Assembly (NCBI RefSeq): GCF_000014445.1
Contig: NC_008531.1
Coordinates: 1-25,000 of the forward strand
Source of the DNA: Leuconostoc mesenteroides subsp. mesenteroides ATCC 8293
Lineage (GTDB): Bacteria > Bacillota > Bacilli > Lactobacillales > Lactobacillaceae
Reading direction: 5' to 3'
Length of the DNA stretch: 25,000 bases
The first letter of the stretch is position 1; the number at the start of each line of letters is the position of its first letter. The position numbers and the translations under genes are program-made. Shown one piece after another: positions 9,901 through 18,940 of the stretch. A model generated the notes under the pieces. It was given only the letters and a program-made list of their open reading frames with translations. It did no database searches and was not told where the DNA came from.

Positions 9901-10614
9901 TTAAGTATGTATTGTTGGTGTCTTAAACTGGATCAAATGGTGTTGGAATTTACGTGTCACCGGTAACAGTGTACCATCTGTTAATTCAATTATTTTTTCT
10001 GACTTTAAGTATTGCTTGATAAAGTCACGATTAATACAAAATGATGCATGAATCTGTATGAAGTTTTCATGGCTTGAAGCAATGGTTTTGATTGTATTTC
10101 GAATTTTGCTTACACCATTCTTTGTGAAAACATTGATATAATGTGTACCCTTATTACTGGAGACATAAGAAAGATGGTTGAGGTCGAATTGGACGAGGTG
10201 TGCACCATTGCGTATAGTAATCAGGTTAGGAGATTTTTTATCGTATCGTTTAAGTACTTGATCAGCTGTGTAAATAGCCGACTTGAGTTGTTGTGCGAAC
10301 GCAGACTCAGGTTGTGATTTGTCAATAAAGTCCAATGCACTGATGTGATGTTGAAATGTGTGCCATGATAATTCACAATGAGTTGTGACAATAATAATCG
10401 GTGAAATAATATCATTCTTGCGAATTAGTTGCGCAGTTTGAAGACCTGCATAAATGACGTCTTTAATTTCAAGATCCAGTAAAATAATCTTCGGGGTTTT
10501 ATCTTTTAGCACTGCAGATAATAAATTGGCAGGCGAAGTGAACGTGTGAATATGTTGTATATACTGTTTAATACGCTTTTGTTGTGTAATGTCGTCTTCT
10601 AGCAGATAAATCAT
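9901..10614 (-). CDS. LytTR-family response regulator (AgrA/ComE type)
   Basis: The 237-residue protein has an N-terminal receiver domain with acidic pocket E6-D7-D8, phospho-acceptor Asp47 (KIILLDLEI), the switch threonines at 77-78 and conserved Lys99 (DFIDKS). A LytTR DNA-binding domain follows from about 136 to 237, ending with the FIQIHASFCINRDFIKQYL block typical of AgrA-like proteins. It probably activates or represses genes when phosphorylated by the adjacent kinase. Its start overlaps the kinase gene by 47 bp, so the pair is one operon. The ATG is backed by a GGAG site nine bases upstream. It converges on the peroxidase gene with only a 24-bp gap, and I see no terminator hairpin there. 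Targets are unknown; the divergent glycosylation operon is a candidate by position. Confidence 0.9.
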   Translation of the reverse strand: MIYLLEDDITQQKRIKQYIQHIHTFTSPANLLSAVLKDKTPKIILLDLEIKDVIYAGLQTAQLIRKNDIISPIIIVTTHCELSWHTFQHHISALDFIDKSQPESAFAQQLKSAIYTADQVLKRYDKKSPNLITIRNGAHLVQFDLNHLSYVSSNKGTHYINVFTKNGVSKIRNTIKTIASSHENFIQIHASFCINRDFIKQYLKSEKIIELTDGTLLPVTRKFQHHLIQFKTPTIHT

Positions 10615-11401
10615 TGTGAAGTTCTCCGATAGTAAGCGTCTGCGTAAAATTCCGATTCATCAAAGTAGCATGCATCGAAATCGTAGGCATCCGCGCCATG
10701 TACTGTTCTACAAAGGTTAATCCAATACCAGAGTGACCCGGTTTCGTTGAGAAACCATTTTTGTTCATGTTTGAAAGGGTCACATTCTGATTAATGGTAT
10801 TTGTAATACTGACAATATGATAATCGTTATCTGACAAAATAGATAAAATGACCTTCCTTTCGATGCTGTTTATGGCTCCCTCAATGGCATTATCAAGCAA
10901 AATACCAATAGTTCGATAAAGATCTAGCGTCACAGTCATATTGAACTTTTCTGCAATATCGACTTTAAAAAATAGACCACTATCAATAGCATATTGATTT
11001 TTGACAACGAGTAAACTACGTAGGTTTAAATCGGTGATCAATTGAAGATTTAAAGTTGGTGAAAGAGGTAAAGCACTAGTACTTTCTGATAAGAAAGAAT
11101 GATAGACTTCTTCTATTTCACATAAATTTTTGGTATCAATCGCTAGAGCTAAACTGGCAAGTATATTTTTATAGTCATGTTGAAAATGTCTGTAGGACGA
11201 ACAAATTTGCTCCAGTTTCGTAACATATGTCTGTGTGGCGCGACTTTCATATTCGTGTTGTGTGCGTAATTGCTGAAAATACCTGCAGAGGGGGTAGATC
11301 ATGATAATTAGTAAAAAAATAAATGTTAATTCAACTAACCAGATAGAATCTAAGAACATATTGATAGGTATCGTAATTGATAAATTCAGAGTAGGGTTCA
11401 T
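10568..11401 (-). CDS. AgrC-like histidine kinase (HPK10 class) with a short sensor part
   Basis: The 277-residue protein ends in a GHKL ATPase domain with N-box LLDNAIEGAINS and G-box GHSGIGLTFV. Phospho-acceptor His75 is in FQHDYKN, the motif of the AgrC/ComD class. Ahead of it is a single strongly hydrophobic segment (about 21-39) and then a likely coiled linker. Typical AgrC/ComD kinases have about 430 residues with six or seven membrane segments that bind a peptide pheromone, so that domain is missing here. The start region is AT-rich and noncoding upstream, so this looks like the true N-terminus rather than a sequencing truncation. It presumably phosphorylates the overlapping response regulator. 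What it senses is not visible. Confidence 0.85.
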   Translation of the reverse strand: MNPTLNLSITIPINMFLDSIWLVELTFIFLLIIMIYPLCRYFQQLRTQHEYESRATQTYVTKLEQICSSYRHFQHDYKNILASLALAIDTKNLCEIEEVYHSFLSESTSALPLSPTLNLQLITDLNLRSLLVVKNQYAIDSGLFFKVDIAEKFNMTVTLDLYRTIGILLDNAIEGAINSIERKVILSILSDNDYHIVSITNTINQNVTLSNMNKNGFSTKPGHSGIGLTFVEQYMARMPTISMHATLMNRNFTQTLTIGELHNDLSARRRHYTTKAY

Positions 11402-11666: not shown

Positions 11667-13292
11667 ATGATTTTTTTCTTAAATGCAACTATGCAACCAC
11701 AGAAATCAGGAATTGAGCATGCGCAATTAAAACGCGCCGATCTTTTTCGAGCACATGGAGAACAGTTTAAAATTGTGCTTCGCGAATGGGATCCTCTTTT
11801 GCATGAAAACATGAAAGCAACCAGCTTAAAATCCTTCGAGGTGATTAACATGTTTGATTATTTTCAGGAAGCAACTGAGGTATCCGATCAGACGATAACA
11901 GTTGATAATCTAGATTTTGGTGTGGCTAACACGCATAGAGTTGAAGAGCTTAAAAAAAATCGTTATCTTATTTACGATATAAATCAACAGCTTATTGCTC
12001 GTGTTAATTATCGGACTGATCAAAAGCAAGTGGCATCTACTGAGTTGTTTGATGGTTTTGGTAATTTATATTGTGTTAATATGTATGATTCTCGAGGCTT
12101 TGTTTCTCTATCTCAATGGTACACACCTGATAATAAGATTGGTTCCGAAACATGGCAAAGTCCGGAAGGAAGAACGGTTTTAGAAGCATTTAACAAAATC
12201 AATAGTGATGGATCGGTTGAAAAAGTTTGTTGGCGGTTGATAAGTAGGGTAGGCGAAATCCATATTTTTGATACACTTGAGCAAGTAACCTTGCACTTTT
12301 TAAATTTGCTTAATGATGAGTACTGGTCAAAAAATGAACCAAATATTTTTATATTAGATCGTGCACATTTAGCTCAAACTGTATTGCGTTATTTGGATAA
12401 ACCATCGTACAATGTACTTTTTTTGCATAATTCTCATGCTAGTGACGCGAGTCATCCTGAAAAGGGCATATTAAATAATAATTATGAGTATAGTTTGTTT
12501 AATATTAACGTCTATGATGCTGTGGTTAGCGCTACGGAAAGGCAAAAAAATGATATTCGCAGTCGATTCAAACCAACCACGAAACTATTTACAATTCCAG
12601 TTGGCGTTATACCAATGAAACAGTTACAACAGCAACGTGTGCCTATGGCAGAGCGAACATTTGGTAAAGTCGTGGCATTGGCACGTAAAGCACCAGAAAA
12701 ACAACTTGACCAATTAGTAAAAGCGGTTGCGTATGCGCGCCAGCAAGTGCCACAAATAACGCTTGATTTATATGGGTACAAGGATCCAACCAATAATTTT
12801 CTTGCTGAACGTTTGATTGAGTCAGCCATTAGAGAAAATAATTTAGAAAACATTGTGACATTGCATGATTATACTAATCAGGTTGCATTGGTCGAACAAG
12901 ACGCGCAAGTTTTTGGTGTTACTTCAAGTATGGAAGGGTTTAATTTATCGCTGATGGAAGCGTTGGCACAGGGAGACATTGGGGTAACTTACGATGTCAA
13001 CTATGGTCCAAATGCAATTATTAATGAGGGAAAAAATGGTTACATCGTGCCTCTAAATGATTACAAATCTATGGGTGAAGCGTTAATTCACATCTTCAAA
13101 GAGCCACGTCTCATGCAACAACTCAGCGACACATCCTATGAAATGTCTTATCGATATAGTTCTGACACGGTGTGGGCACAATGGTGTTTACTTTTGGTCG
13201 ATGCAAAAAAAATGTGGCCAGTCAAACAAGCTAATTATTTTCATATGACGATTAATGATCTAAAGGGTGCGGATGAGGAGAGTGAATCATGA
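11667..13292 (+). CDS. gtfA: GtfA-like glycosyltransferase of the accessory Sec locus (GT-B, family 4)
   Basis: The 541-residue protein resembles GtfA, which adds the first O-linked GlcNAc to Ser/Thr of serine-rich repeat adhesins in the cytoplasm. Visible features are an N-terminal SGIEHAQLKRADLF helix start, an inserted beta-meander (about 115-180, DGFGNLYCVNMYDSRGF onwards) that recognises acceptor protein in this family, and the C-terminal nucleotide-sugar domain with VALARKAPEKQLDQL. The EX7E motif EGFNLSLME has Glu423 and Glu431, followed by YDVNYGPN. Catalytic residues look intact. The start at 11667 fits family N-termini, although its ribosome site is weak. It overlaps the next gene by 4 bp (ATGA). 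TagE-type teichoic acid glucosyltransferases are related, but the asp1-3 neighbours favour the accessory Sec role. Confidence 0.85.
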   Translation: MIFFLNATMQPQKSGIEHAQLKRADLFRAHGEQFKIVLREWDPLLHENMKATSLKSFEVINMFDYFQEATEVSDQTITVDNLDFGVANTHRVEELKKNRYLIYDINQQLIARVNYRTDQKQVASTELFDGFGNLYCVNMYDSRGFVSLSQWYTPDNKIGSETWQSPEGRTVLEAFNKINSDGSVEKVCWRLISRVGEIHIFDTLEQVTLHFLNLLNDEYWSKNEPNIFILDRAHLAQTVLRYLDKPSYNVLFLHNSHASDASHPEKGILNNNYEYSLFNINVYDAVVSATERQKNDIRSRFKPTTKLFTIPVGVIPMKQLQQQRVPMAERTFGKVVALARKAPEKQLDQLVKAVAYARQQVPQITLDLYGYKDPTNNFLAERLIESAIRENNLENIVTLHDYTNQVALVEQDAQVFGVTSSMEGFNLSLMEALAQGDIGVTYDVNYGPNAIINEGKNGYIVPLNDYKSMGEALIHIFKEPRLMQQLSDTSYEMSYRYSSDTVWAQWCLLLVDAKKMWPVKQANYFHMTINDLKGADEESES

Positions 13293-14761
13293 ATTATTTC
13301 ATTTCGGAGAATGCATTTGAATTTAACTCCGGTACTGAATTTTCTCAGGCTGCTCGCACATCGATGTATAATTCATTTGGCAATTTAACGTTATTTGTTA
13401 CACGGAATTATACACCAGTATTCCATCGGACAATTAAAACCCTTGGGTTAAATGACCATCAAGTTTTGAATATGTATGATTTTTTCCAAGAGGCGACGCG
13501 GGTTAGCCGAGCCAAACAAAATTTACGCGAATCTGTCACAATTCCTAAAAAAAGATACGTCATTGAAAGTCCTAATCCCGACCAATCATTGATCCTAAAT
13601 GAGGGACGCACTGTTGCTAAGGTAAATGTCATGCCGGCGACAGTTGCGCTAATGGGTAATGTTGAATACTTTGATCGCTTTGATCATATTGTTGCACGTG
13701 ACGAATGGGACTATCGTGGTTTTAAGTCGTCAACCGCTTATTTTCATCCAAATGGTGAAGTTAGTCTGCAAAAATTCTATACTCCTGTTGGGAAAGTTGT
13801 TTTAGAGATCACACATATGAATGTCCAAGGGCATTTGATGCCAACGATGTATAAGTTGATTAATTATTGTGGTGCAAATTACCGGTTTAATACAGAAAAT
13901 GAATTATTTACCTTTTTTATGAACGAGCAACTGAAACAAAATCCTGGGACTATAATTTTAGAAAGAGCTAGTATGTTGAATACCATACCGGGAATAAAAA
14001 GTACAAAAGGAAAATATTTTTATTTGCATAGTTCACATACAAATTTGAAGGGACAATTGTTGACAACATTAGTTGAATTGATGCGCGGGGCACTAGATTT
14101 TACCGGTATTATTGTGGCCACGAAACAACAACAGCAAGATATGCAGCCATTAACAACACTACCCGTGTTGGCTGCACCAGATACGATTGTCAAAGAAAAT
14201 AAAACAAATTTATTGGCCAATTGTAAATCACATAAAATTTTAGTATTGGGCCGAATTGCCAAAGAAAAACAACCACAAGATGCGCTGTATATCCTAAAAA
14301 GCGTGCAAGCTAGTGTAGCAGATGCGACGCTAGAATTTCGGGGTTACAGTACTGATCGGCAGCTATTAAATGAGTTAGATTTATTAATTGAACAACTAGG
14401 GTTAAAAAATACTGTTACATTTGGTAACTATGTTGTTGGTAAAATGTTGGATGATGTAATAGAAGGAGCGCAAGTATTGCTATCAACCGTACCAACTGAA
14501 GGGAACGGTATGCAAAATATTGAAGCGATGTCGCATGGACTTCCTGTAATCGCGTATAATGTTAATTATGGACCAAATACATACATGTCAAATGAACAAC
14601 TTGTACCAATTGGTAATTATGATCAGGCTGCAAACAGAATAGTTTCGCTATTTCAAGATGATAAGCAATGGCAAGAGGCTAGCATATTAGCGTCCCAACA
14701 AGCACAATTATTTACCAAAGATAGTGTTTATAAGCAGTGGCAAGATTTGAACTTGCAATGA
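13289..14761 (+). CDS. gtfB: Second GtfA/GtfB-type glycosyltransferase of the accessory Sec locus
   Basis: The 490-residue protein is a paralogue of the preceding one. Both share the MYDFFQEATRV block, a beta-meander (VEYFDRFDHIVARDEWDYRG), a C-terminal GT-B domain (VLGRIAKEKQPQDAL) and NVNYGPN. In streptococci the second protein, GtfB, acts mainly as an acceptor-binding partner of GtfA and has lost sugar-nucleotide binding. Here the EX7E motif EGNGMQNIE (Glu404, Glu412) is still present, so it may be catalytic or only recently diverged. Translation is coupled to gtfA through the 4-bp ATGA overlap. The name gtfB is by position and homology, and a separate glycosyltransferase role is possible. 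Confidence 0.75.
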   Translation: MNYFISENAFEFNSGTEFSQAARTSMYNSFGNLTLFVTRNYTPVFHRTIKTLGLNDHQVLNMYDFFQEATRVSRAKQNLRESVTIPKKRYVIESPNPDQSLILNEGRTVAKVNVMPATVALMGNVEYFDRFDHIVARDEWDYRGFKSSTAYFHPNGEVSLQKFYTPVGKVVLEITHMNVQGHLMPTMYKLINYCGANYRFNTENELFTFFMNEQLKQNPGTIILERASMLNTIPGIKSTKGKYFYLHSSHTNLKGQLLTTLVELMRGALDFTGIIVATKQQQQDMQPLTTLPVLAAPDTIVKENKTNLLANCKSHKILVLGRIAKEKQPQDALYILKSVQASVADATLEFRGYSTDRQLLNELDLLIEQLGLKNTVTFGNYVVGKMLDDVIEGAQVLLSTVPTEGNGMQNIEAMSHGLPVIAYNVNYGPNTYMSNEQLVPIGNYDQAANRIVSLFQDDKQWQEASILASQQAQLFTKDSVYKQWQDLNLQ

Positions 14762-14787
14762 GTTAAATATGATTTAGTCTAAAATCA

Positions 14788-14802
14788 GGAGAATTGATCT
14801 CC
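14788..14802 (+). other. Short stem-loop before asp1
   Basis: GGAGA-ATTGA-TCTCC forms a five-base stem in the 61-bp gap between gtfB and asp1, with no T run after it. It would hide an alternative GGAG site upstream of the real one (GAGGT, about 14811-14815). It could be a processing or translation-control element, or insignificant. Confidence 0.3.
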
Positions 14803-14822
14803 GTACATATGAGGTACTTTCG

Positions 14823-16286
14823 ATGAGAATTCACATTATGCCAAACTGGAGCGAACTTGGCGTAGAGATACCACAATTTAATGACAGCATCCATCAAGCA
14901 CAATTATTTTTAGAACAAGGACAAGAAGTTGCCTTCATCTTGTGTGATTATCTACCCAAATTGCGTGGTATATTGTCAAACAAAAATATTGATAAAGCTA
15001 CCGTTTGGTCAGCGTTTGATGTATTACAACATATTGACTTGTCAGCGCCACGACCTGTGGCATTAAATGACTTTACTTGGCCGGATTATGCAGAGTTTAT
15101 GACGTTGACCGATCGAATTCTAGTCAACGTTTCTGGCCAGCACTACGCGACAATTTGGAGTGATCAATTATCATTTGACCATATTGACTTGTTTGCTGAC
15201 GATATGATGACGCAACAATTAATCATTGATGATCGAGGATTTGTATCAAAAGTTATCGTATTTGATGAGGGTAATCAAGTTCGAACAGACTACTTGACCC
15301 CTAGTGGTGATATTGCGTTGCAAGAGGATGAACTGACTGGTCTTGTAACAACGCAACAGTTGTGGACAGAGCAGACACAATTTTCTAATATGACGGTATT
15401 GATTCATGAACTCGTAAGTTATTACTTGAATAAAATACCCGATGATGAAAATATAATTATTTCTCCAAGCGTAACTACTGGTGAAATACTTGAGGATATT
15501 GCTATCAAACAACCAATAATTGTCAGCGTACAAAATAATTTTGTTGAAGTAGGCAAGGAATTGGGAAAAATTAGCGATTTTATTGTTACGGACAATGAGC
15601 GACATCAACAACAAGTAATAGCATTTGATGGTGAAACAAAGGAAGTTGCTATCGTTCCACCATACGCAACAGATATGGTGGAAAACGAACATCTCCAGAG
15701 TCCACTGGTAAGTCTATTTATTTCAGCACATAATTTATCTGTTGCACAACAAACGATAGTTATTGCTGCATTAATTAATATTATTAATGAATATGACACG
15801 ACGACAGTTGTATTTGAAACTTCTGATAAAACTTCAGCAATGCAAAAACAAATTCATGAAGCAAGTTTAAAAGCTAAAAATGAGCATGGCTTGGTAGATC
15901 AGGACAGTCAAATGGCCTTTAAATCACGTTTTCATTTCTTGGAGACTCAAAATGAAGAACAACTTGTGCGTTATATGAAACACACACAAATCCTAATTGA
16001 TTTGGATAATGAACCAAATCAATTCTTACAAACCGTGGCAATTAATTTTTCTATACCACAAATTAACAGCGCGGAAACAGTCTACCTTGAGCCTGATAAA
16101 AATGGTAAAGTATTGGCAGACTTTGCAGAGTTAGACAAAGCAATAAGTTTCTTTTTGGATAATAAAAAGCATTTTGAAATAGCACAAGAAGTATCCGCAG
16201 ACATACAAGCGGAATATACTAGTGAAATGCTATGGATTAAATGGCAGCAAGTATTCAACAAAATCAAAAGTAAGATGAATAACTAA
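14823..16286 (+). CDS. asp1: Accessory Sec system protein Asp1
   Basis: Asp1 is a cytoplasmic, catalytically inactive GT-B-like scaffold that works with Asp2 and Asp3 to pass glycosylated adhesins to SecA2. The N-terminus (HIMPNWSELG, then FNDSIHQAQLFLEQGQEVAFILCDYLPKLR split across about 1-48) resembles streptococcal Asp1 (Pro-Ser-Trp start, then a LxxYxPxLR block). The middle carries a beta-meander (RGFVSKVIVFDEGNQVRTDY) like those of the two upstream glycosyltransferases. No EX7E motif is seen, consistent with a non-catalytic member. At 487 residues it is slightly shorter than streptococcal forms (about 525). GAGGT lies before the ATG, and asp2 begins 27 bp after its stop. Confidence 0.85.
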   Translation: MRIHIMPNWSELGVEIPQFNDSIHQAQLFLEQGQEVAFILCDYLPKLRGILSNKNIDKATVWSAFDVLQHIDLSAPRPVALNDFTWPDYAEFMTLTDRILVNVSGQHYATIWSDQLSFDHIDLFADDMMTQQLIIDDRGFVSKVIVFDEGNQVRTDYLTPSGDIALQEDELTGLVTTQQLWTEQTQFSNMTVLIHELVSYYLNKIPDDENIIISPSVTTGEILEDIAIKQPIIVSVQNNFVEVGKELGKISDFIVTDNERHQQQVIAFDGETKEVAIVPPYATDMVENEHLQSPLVSLFISAHNLSVAQQTIVIAALINIINEYDTTTVVFETSDKTSAMQKQIHEASLKAKNEHGLVDQDSQMAFKSRFHFLETQNEEQLVRYMKHTQILIDLDNEPNQFLQTVAINFSIPQINSAETVYLEPDKNGKVLADFAELDKAISFFLDNKKHFEIAQEVSADIQAEYTSEMLWIKWQQVFNKIKSKMNN

Positions 16287-16313
16287 ATAATTTGATGCAA
16301 TGACAGGTGAAAA

Positions 16314-17834
16314 ATGACAATATCAATTTTACAAATTGGCGCAGAAAACTGGGCACCATATATTACTGATAAGCTCGATTGGCACCATACATCAGTACTG
16401 GACCTACCTACTTTTTTAGCCATGCAAAGGGATCCGTACGTATTAGAACAAACCTATGTGTTGCTCACAGATGATCATCTTGAAAGCACGCTGCTATCCA
16501 GTCAAATTAATGAATGGCCTGCATTACGAGTGATTTATTTTGCTCATGAAGTAGCGTCTGATTTTCAAAAAATTCTTGATGAGCGACGCGCTTTTCGTAT
16601 TGAAGAAAATACACCAGAAAATGTTGAAAAAAGAATAGTTACTGATATGGATACCAGCCAATATGGTTTTTCGACACGCTTTAGCGCCGAACAATTTATT
16701 CCTTATGTGCCTGAAGGAATTCATTTGCAACGACAAGGAGATTTTTCAACACAATTTGAAGGTGAATTTGGAGAAGATTGGCAACAATTAGGAACACTAA
16801 AGGCTGGTACAAGTGATTTTCAAAGTGGTCGGGCAAACGAGGTATGGTTGGAATACAATCATACAGAGAAAGCTGAACCGGCCTTGCTATTTGTGTTTTA
16901 TAAAAATGGTGAAGTATTGACTCAACAGTTGATAGCTGGTCAATCATTGCGCCAATTGACAACTGTAGCGCCCCCTGAAGATTACGAAAATTATGAAATC
17001 TTGGTTTTGGGTAAAGGTCAGGGAACCATTGATTTTTACGTCATTCACCAAAGAGCCTCTCGACATGGGTTGGGACATTTGCTACCAGGTGGAACGTGGC
17101 AGCTTACCAAAGAAAATGAAGAAGTGTTAAGTTACTTTAATCCCGGAGATCGTCAAAAACCACTGATTGTCAGTTTTGCGGATACGAGGCTTCATGTTGA
17201 TGGGTTTGAAATGCAAGAAGCGTTAAATCGTCTAGGAACACCATATTTATTGTTTACAGATGCGCGTGTACAGGGTGGCGCATTTGATATTGGAACAGCA
17301 GAATATGAAGCGACCATCATTAGAATAATTAAGCAAAAAATGAAAACATTAGGACTACGTGCCGAAGATCTTATTTTGATGGGTGCTTCTATGGGTAGTT
17401 ACCCTGCTTTGTACTACGCTGCTGATCTTAACCCCGCTGCTGTTGTCATTGCAAAACCAATTGTTAATTTGGGCACATTCACTGCTGGATCAACTATTTC
17501 ACGTGGCTTTGATTATGGTTGGCGTTTAGATGTACGACGTTATTTGAGTGGCTATGTTAGGCCTGATGATAACGTAGCCATGAATGAAAAGTTATGGGAA
17601 CACATTGAGAATACGAACTGGACAAATATCAAAGTGGCTTTATTTTCGATGTCTCAAGATGAATATGATGGTCAGAGCTTAGGTCAATTATTAGATTTCT
17701 TTGCCAAGCATAATGTCCCAGTAAAGCATGAAAGTGAAGAAGGGCAACATACGGAGAAACTTGATGAAATGGTTGACTTCATGATGACTAATTTAAATGT
17801 ATTACAAAACACTATGCGAGCGGAGGGTGAATAA
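16314..17834 (+). CDS. asp2: Accessory Sec system protein Asp2 (alpha/beta-hydrolase acetyltransferase/esterase type)
   Basis: Asp2 is required for export of serine-rich adhesins, and in streptococci it also O-acetylates their GlcNAc. The 506-residue protein has an N-terminal region (about 1-125), a beta-sandwich carbohydrate-binding-like module (about 140-255) and a C-terminal alpha/beta-hydrolase domain. The nucleophile elbow is GASMGS with Ser359. The best acid candidates are Asp449/Glu450 in MSQDEYD, and the histidine is His479 in EEGQHTEK. From memory, the S. gordonii triad is Ser362, Glu452 and His482, so spacing agrees. The Shine-Dalgarno is AGGTG. Its stop codon overlaps the asp3 start by one base (TAATG). 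Confidence 0.9.
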   Translation: MTISILQIGAENWAPYITDKLDWHHTSVLDLPTFLAMQRDPYVLEQTYVLLTDDHLESTLLSSQINEWPALRVIYFAHEVASDFQKILDERRAFRIEENTPENVEKRIVTDMDTSQYGFSTRFSAEQFIPYVPEGIHLQRQGDFSTQFEGEFGEDWQQLGTLKAGTSDFQSGRANEVWLEYNHTEKAEPALLFVFYKNGEVLTQQLIAGQSLRQLTTVAPPEDYENYEILVLGKGQGTIDFYVIHQRASRHGLGHLLPGGTWQLTKENEEVLSYFNPGDRQKPLIVSFADTRLHVDGFEMQEALNRLGTPYLLFTDARVQGGAFDIGTAEYEATIIRIIKQKMKTLGLRAEDLILMGASMGSYPALYYAADLNPAAVVIAKPIVNLGTFTAGSTISRGFDYGWRLDVRRYLSGYVRPDDNVAMNEKLWEHIENTNWTNIKVALFSMSQDEYDGQSLGQLLDFFAKHNVPVKHESEEGQHTEKLDEMVDFMMTNLNVLQNTMRAEGE

Positions 17835-18871
17835 TGCAATATCAAATTTATTGGACACCCAATACTGAACTGCTGGGACTTCAAGGGGCAACAGTTGACT
17901 TCAGGTCGTTGAATGAAGTGTATTATGAAAATTATTTTTTACCAAGTGGAGAGGTTGTTGCGAGATGGCATTCTACATACAACAGAATGAGTGGTCAACC
18001 GGTGGTGAAGGCAGACTTGCCCCAGCTGTCACACGGTGAGACATATGTGATAGAGCGTCATATTGATGCCAGTGACCGGATGTTTGCCTATTTGGTGGTG
18101 ACTTTTTTTGATCAGCAATACCAGCCAATTGCTACTTTCAGTGAAAATACTGAAAGACTGTTGATCAATACACCAGATGAATATGCTTTCTATGTTATTG
18201 ATTTAGTTTCTGCAGGAAGCGGACATTTTACATTTCATAATTTCGATATTCGCATAAAAAGGGCTGGTATTTTGCGAGAAGACGACCAAGAAATAGCGCC
18301 ACAATTATATAATTATTTGCACCAGCCAGAGAAAGTGACGAGTAAAGTATTACGGGTTATTTTTTCAGAGCCAGAAGAAGCGGTAACTGACTATGTCACG
18401 AAAAAAATAAAAACAACGCAACAAGCCGTATTATTTGTTGCAAGTGGCACACTAAAAGCAGGTTATTATCGTCAGTTAGAACTAATATCAGGCATTAAAA
18501 CTGCACGAAAACAGGCTAAGGCGCACAGTCTTGAGTTTGTTGGTTATGGACCAATATCTAGTTACGCTGCCCTCTATTATCAGCAACAAATTAAAAAGAG
18601 TGTGGCCATAATTAGCGAAGATATTTTATTGTCCCCTGGAAAGTCAGAATGGACAATTGAACGTAGCGTTGATGGCGTCAGCTATCTTACTAGTTCGATA
18701 ATGCCCAACACTCAACTTGATCTAATCATTTCACATCCAAAATATGAGCGATTAGAAACACTGACATATGAGACGCCAACGCCTGAAGAATATGAGCAGC
18801 AATTGTTGTATGAGGCAGCACATCCAAAACCTGGCGCATTCTCTAAGCTTTTTGGTCAAAAAAACAAATGA
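17834..18871 (+). CDS. asp3: Accessory Sec system protein Asp3, extended by a hydrolase-like C-terminal half
   Basis: Residues 1 to about 145 match the Asp3 beta-sandwich: a WTPNTELLG start, FRSLNEVYYENYFLPSG, LPQLSHGETY, a LVVTFFDQQYQPI strand and YVIDLVSAGSGHFTF. Asp3 binds Asp1/Asp2 and adhesin carbohydrate in streptococci. That family is usually about 150-310 residues, whereas this product has 345. Residues 170-300 look like an alpha/beta-hydrolase core. GYGPISSYAALYY (237-249) lines up with GASMGSYPALYY of Asp2 but lacks the nucleophile serine, so it is probably inactive. The C-terminus is a charged tail (KPGAFSKLFGQKNK). Translation is coupled to asp2, and a terminator follows. Confidence 0.85.
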   Translation: MQYQIYWTPNTELLGLQGATVDFRSLNEVYYENYFLPSGEVVARWHSTYNRMSGQPVVKADLPQLSHGETYVIERHIDASDRMFAYLVVTFFDQQYQPIATFSENTERLLINTPDEYAFYVIDLVSAGSGHFTFHNFDIRIKRAGILREDDQEIAPQLYNYLHQPEKVTSKVLRVIFSEPEEAVTDYVTKKIKTTQQAVLFVASGTLKAGYYRQLELISGIKTARKQAKAHSLEFVGYGPISSYAALYYQQQIKKSVAIISEDILLSPGKSEWTIERSVDGVSYLTSSIMPNTQLDLIISHPKYERLETLTYETPTPEEYEQQLLYEAAHPKPGAFSKLFGQKNK

Positions 18872-18883
18872 TAAGTTATTTAT

Positions 18884-18940
18884 AACCAACAAAAAAGAGC
18901 CAAACATTTACTTGTTTAGCTCTTTTTCTGTTGGTTTTTT
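18884..18940. terminator. Bidirectional terminator between asp3 and the thioesterase gene
   Basis: A long imperfect stem (AACCAACA...AAAGAGC with GCTCTTT...TGTTGGTT) encloses a small loop. It has an A-rich run on the left and TTTTTT on the right, so it can end transcription from both converging genes. It includes the last codons of the minus-strand gene. Confidence 0.85.

Follow-up and report, generated by a model that had tools for sequence, protein, structure and literature searches.

A Gtf/Asp operon without its accessory Sec translocase is an inherited variant in Leuconostoc and its relatives

The proteins Asp1, Asp2 and Asp3 are described from accessory Sec (aSec) systems, whose locus in L. 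gelidum is reported to run secY2-asp1-asp2-asp3-secA2-nss-gtfA-gtfB-asp4 (PMC4895993). According to the account given for S. gordonii, Asp2 is a GlcNAc O-acetyltransferase which acetylates only during aSec transport, and no longer does so after secA2 deletion or rerouting of the substrate to canonical Sec (PMC5578698), and canonical Sec export of SRRP is said to be blocked by glycosylation (PMC5796085). Related glycosyltransferases are described in other settings: the structure 7vfk, identical in sequence to 7ec1, is presented as staphylococcal SdgB (PMC8561734), and Gtf1/Gtf2 of L. plantarum WCFS1 are described as modifying AST-rich surface proteins (PMC5796085). A search of open-access titles and abstracts retrieved no literature on Asp1-3 without SecA2.

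The window analysed here is a stretch of 25,000 nucleotides from the origin side of a Leuconostoc mesenteroides contig, containing dnaA, dnaN, recF, gyrB and gyrA (assigned from the ORFs by inspection); the whole genome (G000; 2,075,763 bases in 2 contigs, 99.99% complete) was searched as well. The preliminary description, which had placed a gtfA-gtfB-asp1-asp2-asp3 operon lacking a translocase at 11667-18871, is partly confirmed. The ORF list does contain five co-directional genes at that position (Table 1) and, among its entries of at least 60 aa, no gene for a translocase or an adhesin was recognized, so the serine-rich repeat adhesin that adjoins an accessory Sec cluster is missing from this list too; the Pfam/NCBIfam scan within the window covered the eight proteins around the operon. 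The overlapping starts and stops reported earlier are present at two of the four junctions (gtf1/gtf2, 4 bp; asp2/asp3, 1 bp), the other two being gaps of 61 bp (gtf2-asp1) and 27 bp (asp1-asp2). Likewise, the hairpin that had been read as a bidirectional terminator was recognized as terminator-like solely on the minus strand, and a two-way function is plausible given its A-rich left flank. An AgrC/AgrA-like sensor kinase and LytTR regulator pair lies divergently from gtf1 (window 9901-11401, minus strand), with relatives at the matching position in G018, G003 and G016, and none there in G010 and G013. A role in phage defence was also considered and dropped, as PADLOC gave no match for any of the five operon proteins.

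Table 1. Features of the operon in the window and related genes elsewhere in the same genome (C2, contig of G000).
Feature	Position	Strand	Length	Description
gtf1	11667..13292	+	541 aa	GT4 O-glycosyltransferase, DUF1975-type N-terminus, SdgB/SdgA-like
gtf2	13289..14761	+	490 aa	Second SdgA/SdgB-like GT4, not GtfB chaperone
asp1, type B	14823..16286	+	487 aa	TIGR03713, 218 bits; PF16993, 160 bits
asp2, type B	16314..17834	+	506 aa	TIGR03712, 280 bits; Gap2 6oyc_B, 183 bits
asp3, type B, long form	17834..18871	+	345 aa	Sandwich and hydrolase-like domain
Terminator-like hairpin	18891..18928	.		Closes operon, facing menI; 16-pair stem, T tail on minus strand
Candidate substrate	C2:1273996-1276284		762 aa	Ser/Thr-rich KxYKxGKxW protein
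Core GtfA-like/short GtfB-like pair (cgtA-cgtB)	C2:1891348-1893620			Beside pgk; from profile scores

The identity of the last three genes is clear, since Asp1, Asp2 and Asp3 all pass their NCBIfam cut-offs (218 vs 136, 280 vs 211 and 163 vs 67 bits). The first two genes resemble the Sdg enzymes. The best NCBIfam model of each is SdgA, far under the Sdg cut-off of 800 (gtf1: SdgA 226, SdgB 212 and GtfA 163 bits, the GtfA cut-off being 575; gtf2: SdgA 170 and SdgB 139). The best solved structures are those of SdgB, with 168 bits over residues 3-507 for gtf1 (7ec1/7ec3/7ec7; GtfA 5e9t reaches 122) and 117 bits for gtf2. The gtfB label proposed for the second gene does not hold: the GtfB model TIGR02919 gives only 24 bits (cut-off 338), and the EX7E pattern, which we take to be the mark of catalytic GT4 enzymes, is kept in both proteins (at 423 in gtf1 and 404 in gtf2). 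Therefore, gtf2 is a second catalytic-type enzyme rather than a GtfB chaperone, and the pair consists of two adjacent, full-length GT4 enzymes. Judging from profile scores, the GtfA/GtfB-like pair proper is instead the one beside pgk, composed of a GtfA-like protein (226 bits against a cut-off of 575) and a short protein related to GtfB (34 bits against 338; 276 aa, no EX7E), hereafter cgtA-cgtB.

The absence of a translocase extends to the whole genome. A single SecA passes the cut-off (399 bits; the other match, of 18.7 bits, is below it) and a single SecY was found (317 bits), so that neither a SecA2 motor nor a SecY2 channel was detected by the SecA and SecY models across the 2 contigs. 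These searches are able to see the missing components, as a second SecA was found by the same search in nine of 19 genomes of the genus, whose coordinates always place it no more than ~3 kb from an Asp2 of high score, and the SecY model scores the SecY2 of locus L059 at 172 bits. With both controls positive, one SecA and one SecY mean that SecA2 and SecY2 are absent and that this is not a split but otherwise ordinary aSec system. Thus, unless a gene has escaped the 99.99%-complete assembly, the suggestion that secA2 and secY2 sit elsewhere is refuted, as is the more specific scenario of a complete secA2-secY2-adhesin set in another part of the genome.

Asp2 proteins of the genus fall into two score classes. 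The lower class, at 248-278 bits ('type B'), is present in 19/19 genomes, twice in G016, and the higher, at 506-640 bits ('type A'), occurs additionally in 9/19, in loci with the order secY2-asp1-asp2-asp3-secA2-gtf. In a sample of 301 genomes of the family, full-length Asp2 proteins score at most 278 or at least 322 bits, with none between; a partial match of 113 bits in G200 was left unclassified. The two types were tallied by hand against SecA counts from listings of these 301 genomes. Type A is found in 68, with at least two SecA matches in 66 of them, and the two exceptions are incomplete genomes (G177, 87% complete; G268, 76%). Type B is found in 34, ten of which also have type A, and none of the 24 genomes with type B alone has a second SecA. 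At least two SecA matches without type A were seen in seven genomes, including G200. Six genomes (G020, G036, G066, G119, G239 and G240) show two SecA matches and no Asp2 match, and could possibly represent the reverse case, SecA2 without Asp proteins.

An unrooted tree of 47 Asp2 proteins from these loci and three database proteins separates the 36 type B from the 11 type A sequences by one branch with 100/100 support. A protein of Weissella cibaria joins the type B side on a long branch, its placement being unsure. Outside the family, the Asp2 profile retrieved 32 proteins among the best 8000 candidates by shared words.

Beyond Leuconostoc, type B is present in 13/13 sampled genomes of Fructobacillus (g2), 2/2 of a group that is probably Convivina (g7), 1/1 of g8, 2/2 of g39 and 1/7 of g29. 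All 14 loci fetched from g2, g7 and g39 carry cgtA-cgtB-asp1-asp2-asp3 as one operon, and no SecA2 or SecY2 relative was labelled within these 14 stretches. A cgtB-like gene (at least 149 bits; 34/301 genomes) is found in 33/34 type-B genomes and 1/267 others, the exceptions being G101 (cgtB without type B) and G180 (type B without cgtB). In Leuconostoc, the two parts are separated: the core trio adjoins menI-menB in 18/19 genomes (the contig of G004 is too short), and cgtA-cgtB lies apart from it in 15/15 sampled genomes, adjoining pgk in all five fetched; G016 has a further cgtA-cgtB copy next to its extra trio. Among the 19 genomes, the Sdg-like pair gtf1-gtf2 directly precedes the trio only in G000 and one sister genome (G018); genes with at least 50% identity to gtf1 occur in G000, G018, G003 and G016, and the last two carry the pair (50% identity) away from the core trio. 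Together, these observations point to an old branch of the accessory Sec machinery, passed on by inheritance, and not to a copy that is broken or scattered. Gtf/Asp machinery lacking the translocase is a real, inherited variant.

The genes are also under purifying selection, with dN/dS of 0.08-0.21 for asp1-3 against three relatives (dS against G013 being saturated) and 0.15-0.18 for gtf1-gtf2 against G018, which argues that the operon is more than chance; gyrA and menB show lower values (0.01-0.04). The window Asp2 keeps the GxSxG nucleophile S359, D449/D452 and H479. Among the 36 type-B Asp2 proteins, the serine is kept in 31 and Asp449, Asp452 and His479 in all; five intact genes (L047, L052, L056, L152 and L164, from G009, G014, G017, G019 and G025) have Gly, Ala or Asp in place of the GxSxG serine and appear, from their sequences, to be natural catalytic-site losses. 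Acetylation cannot therefore be the whole function. In the structure model, Asp3 has a carbohydrate-binding-like sandwich and a hydrolase-like domain without GxSxG, a pair of domains also found in Asp2. Asp3 is related to Asp2 along most of its length, GYGPISS standing where GxSxG would be, and looks like a non-catalytic sister of Asp2. Its tail was at first sight a novelty, an idea dropped because the same tail is present in the S. agalactiae Gap3 structure.

Adhesin-like genes adjoin type-B operons in two relatives. On G016:C3 (L055/L067), a serine-rich protein of 2557 aa, bearing a KxYKxGKxW-type signal, adjoins the extra type-B operon, in the order adhesin, 215-aa gene, GtfA-like, 276-aa GtfB-like and trio. 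On G180:C21 (L165), an incomplete LPXTG protein carrying SSSASQ-type repeats lies 166 bp before gtf1-gtf2-asp1-asp2-asp3, the order of the window. Searches of both stretches by tblastn found neither SecA2 nor SecY2. Nevertheless, a SecA2 is present on a different contig of G016, and the genome of G180 is 65% complete, its contig stopping 124 bp past asp3, so that neither locus proves independence from SecA2.

In the genome of the window, a 762-aa protein (Table 1) is possibly a substrate. It combines a KxYKxGKxW signal and a Cthe_2159 domain with a repeat rich in S/T, where the densest 80 residues reach 66% S+T, and with an LPKTG end recognized by eye and pattern only (Pfam anchor 15.7 bits, under the 20-bit cut-off). 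Full-length relatives occur in only 3/19 genomes of the genus (G000, G018 and G013); in G015 and G016 the match is weak and N-terminal. A role as the dedicated partner of gtf1-gtf2 is not supported, since the distributions differ (G000/G018/G013 vs G000/G018/G003/G016). KxYKxGKxW signals are present in 257/301 family genomes, most without any Asp; they were therefore rejected as a marker of type-B substrates and provide no evidence for the interpretation proposed below. G009, which has one SecA, encodes (L137:6202-12138) a Ser/Thr-rich KxYKxGKxW protein ending in LPKTD, followed by an SdgA-like GT4 and then by a 568-aa protein whose C-terminal part resembles a galactofuranosyltransferase, and G006 (L138) has a similar repeat-protein/GT pair. 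G000 itself carries a tandem array of three KxYKxGKxW proteins, each ~1000 aa long, that share the same last 45 residues (L135:824-10473; C2:1396823-1406472) and, by eye, a pilus-like cluster in which three anchored proteins accompany two sortase-like genes (L069:3682-11554; C2:1528681-1536553), whose 508-aa protein passes the LPXTG model.

With moderate confidence, we propose that the window carries the Asp1-Asp2-Asp3 component, along with a second Gtf pair, of a SecA2/SecY2-free branch (type B) of the aSec glycosylation machinery, which would serve cytoplasmic glycosylation and O-acetylation, followed by housekeeping Sec export. The GT4 pairs (the pgk-linked core and the Sdg-like gtf1-gtf2) would put GlcNAc on Ser/Thr-rich surface preproteins in the cytoplasm. 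The Asp1-Asp2-Asp3 complex would then bind the glycosylated tract, and Asp2 would O-acetylate the GlcNAc, as its conserved catalytic residues may allow. The preprotein, with a KxYKxGKxW or an ordinary signal, would finally exit via SecA/SecYEG, because no other translocase is present in the genome. Given the coupling of acetylation to aSec in S. gordonii and the block of canonical Sec by glycosylation, type B would have to differ from the described systems. The interpretation in the preliminary description is partly supported, and the alternative it offered, another export route or another product, is the favoured one: the trio does form a distinct Asp clade kept without a second SecA, and both the route and the product are our inference. 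A bolder version, which we put forward tentatively and consider somewhat doubtful, is that Asp1-3 and a Gtf pair are a free-standing protein-glycan module working with housekeeping SecA/SecYEG, acetylation being uncoupled from SecA2.

Several other explanations deserve consideration. A split but ordinary aSec system, with secA2, secY2 and an adhesin elsewhere in the genome, would fit the complete secY2-asp1-3-secA2-gtf locus found elsewhere in 9/19 related Leuconostoc genomes (described also, for its part, in PMC4895993), but it is almost certainly wrong for a genome with one SecA over the cut-off and one SecY, and where both loci coexist the canonical one has its own type A Asp1-3. The missing translocase genes, the serine lost from five type-B Asp2 proteins and dN/dS values above those of gyrA and menB could also be expected of what was once an aSec locus and is now in decay, without present function; this is very improbable for genes that are intact throughout the genus and in other genera, kept together in an operon and constrained at the dN/dS given above. 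That gtf1-gtf2 and asp1-3 are accidental neighbours, a mobile Sdg-like pair having landed upstream of an old trio, is rather unlikely, although it accounts for the adjacency in G000 and G018 alone, the location elsewhere in G003 and G016 and the persistence of the core pair beside pgk. Against it, G180, which belongs to another genus, shows the same five-gene order after an adhesin (pair identities of 28.5% and 24.5%), though the G180 gtf2 gives a score with GtfB (32 bits) but none with Sdg.

The remaining two readings concern what the module does. It might modify a polymer other than protein, for example wall teichoic acid or exopolysaccharide, as TarM structures are matched by gtf1 (76 bits) and gtf2 (44 bits) and no single substrate gene tracks the trio. 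We regard this as distinctly improbable, because SdgB and GtfA outscore TarM, serine-rich adhesins adjoin two type-B operons and Asp1-3 are, in the accounts available, known only with SRR glycoproteins (PMC5578698, PMC7948813). It is likewise unlikely that Asp1-3 are only a glycan-binding escort or export chaperone in which Asp2 catalysis is incidental: the replaced serines in intact genes, the domains common to Asp2 and the Asp3 model and the S. gordonii export reported not to need Asp2 catalysis (PMC5578698) agree with this, but the catalytic residues are kept in most or all type-B Asp2 proteins.

Under our preferred interpretation of a SecA2/SecY2-free branch, type B is a case in which glycan processing is naturally separated from a dedicated translocase, with Asp2 in genomes without the aSec translocase and five natural serine losses. 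It could help to establish if Asp1-3 depends on SecA2 in the first place, and could show how glycosylated preproteins cross the ordinary Sec channel. If the free-standing module were true, canonical aSec would be a module that gained its own SecA2/SecY2, and type B would keep the other, perhaps older, state (the Asp2 tree being unrooted) in Leuconostoc, Fructobacillus and relatives. Leuconostoc and Fructobacillus are food and bee bacteria. In practice, the automatic label 'accessory Sec system protein' does not imply an aSec system.

To our knowledge, the SD-repeat substrates of staphylococcal SdgA/SdgB need no dedicated translocase. The window pair differs from these enzymes in standing far under the Sdg cut-offs and in being joined to asp1-3, in an operon without an SD-repeat protein, and shares with them, as they are described, two full-length GT4/DUF1975 enzymes encoded adjacently (PMC8561734). 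The O-GlcNAc Gtf1/Gtf2 of L. plantarum WCFS1, likened here by description and not by sequence, are also a DUF1975 GT pair outside a secA2 cluster, and the account of them makes no mention of Asp1-3 where the pair is presented (PMC5796085). In comparison with the accessory Sec systems of streptococci, lactobacilli and some Leuconostoc, the genome of the window is without SecA2 and SecY2, its Asp2 lies in a separate clade, its GtfB is short (276 aa), no adhesin is adjacent and the gtf genes come first. GtfA-like and GtfB-like genes are present, but elsewhere in the genome; what is held in common are the same Asp1, Asp2 and Asp3 families, with an Asp3 that is long, as in S. agalactiae Gap3.
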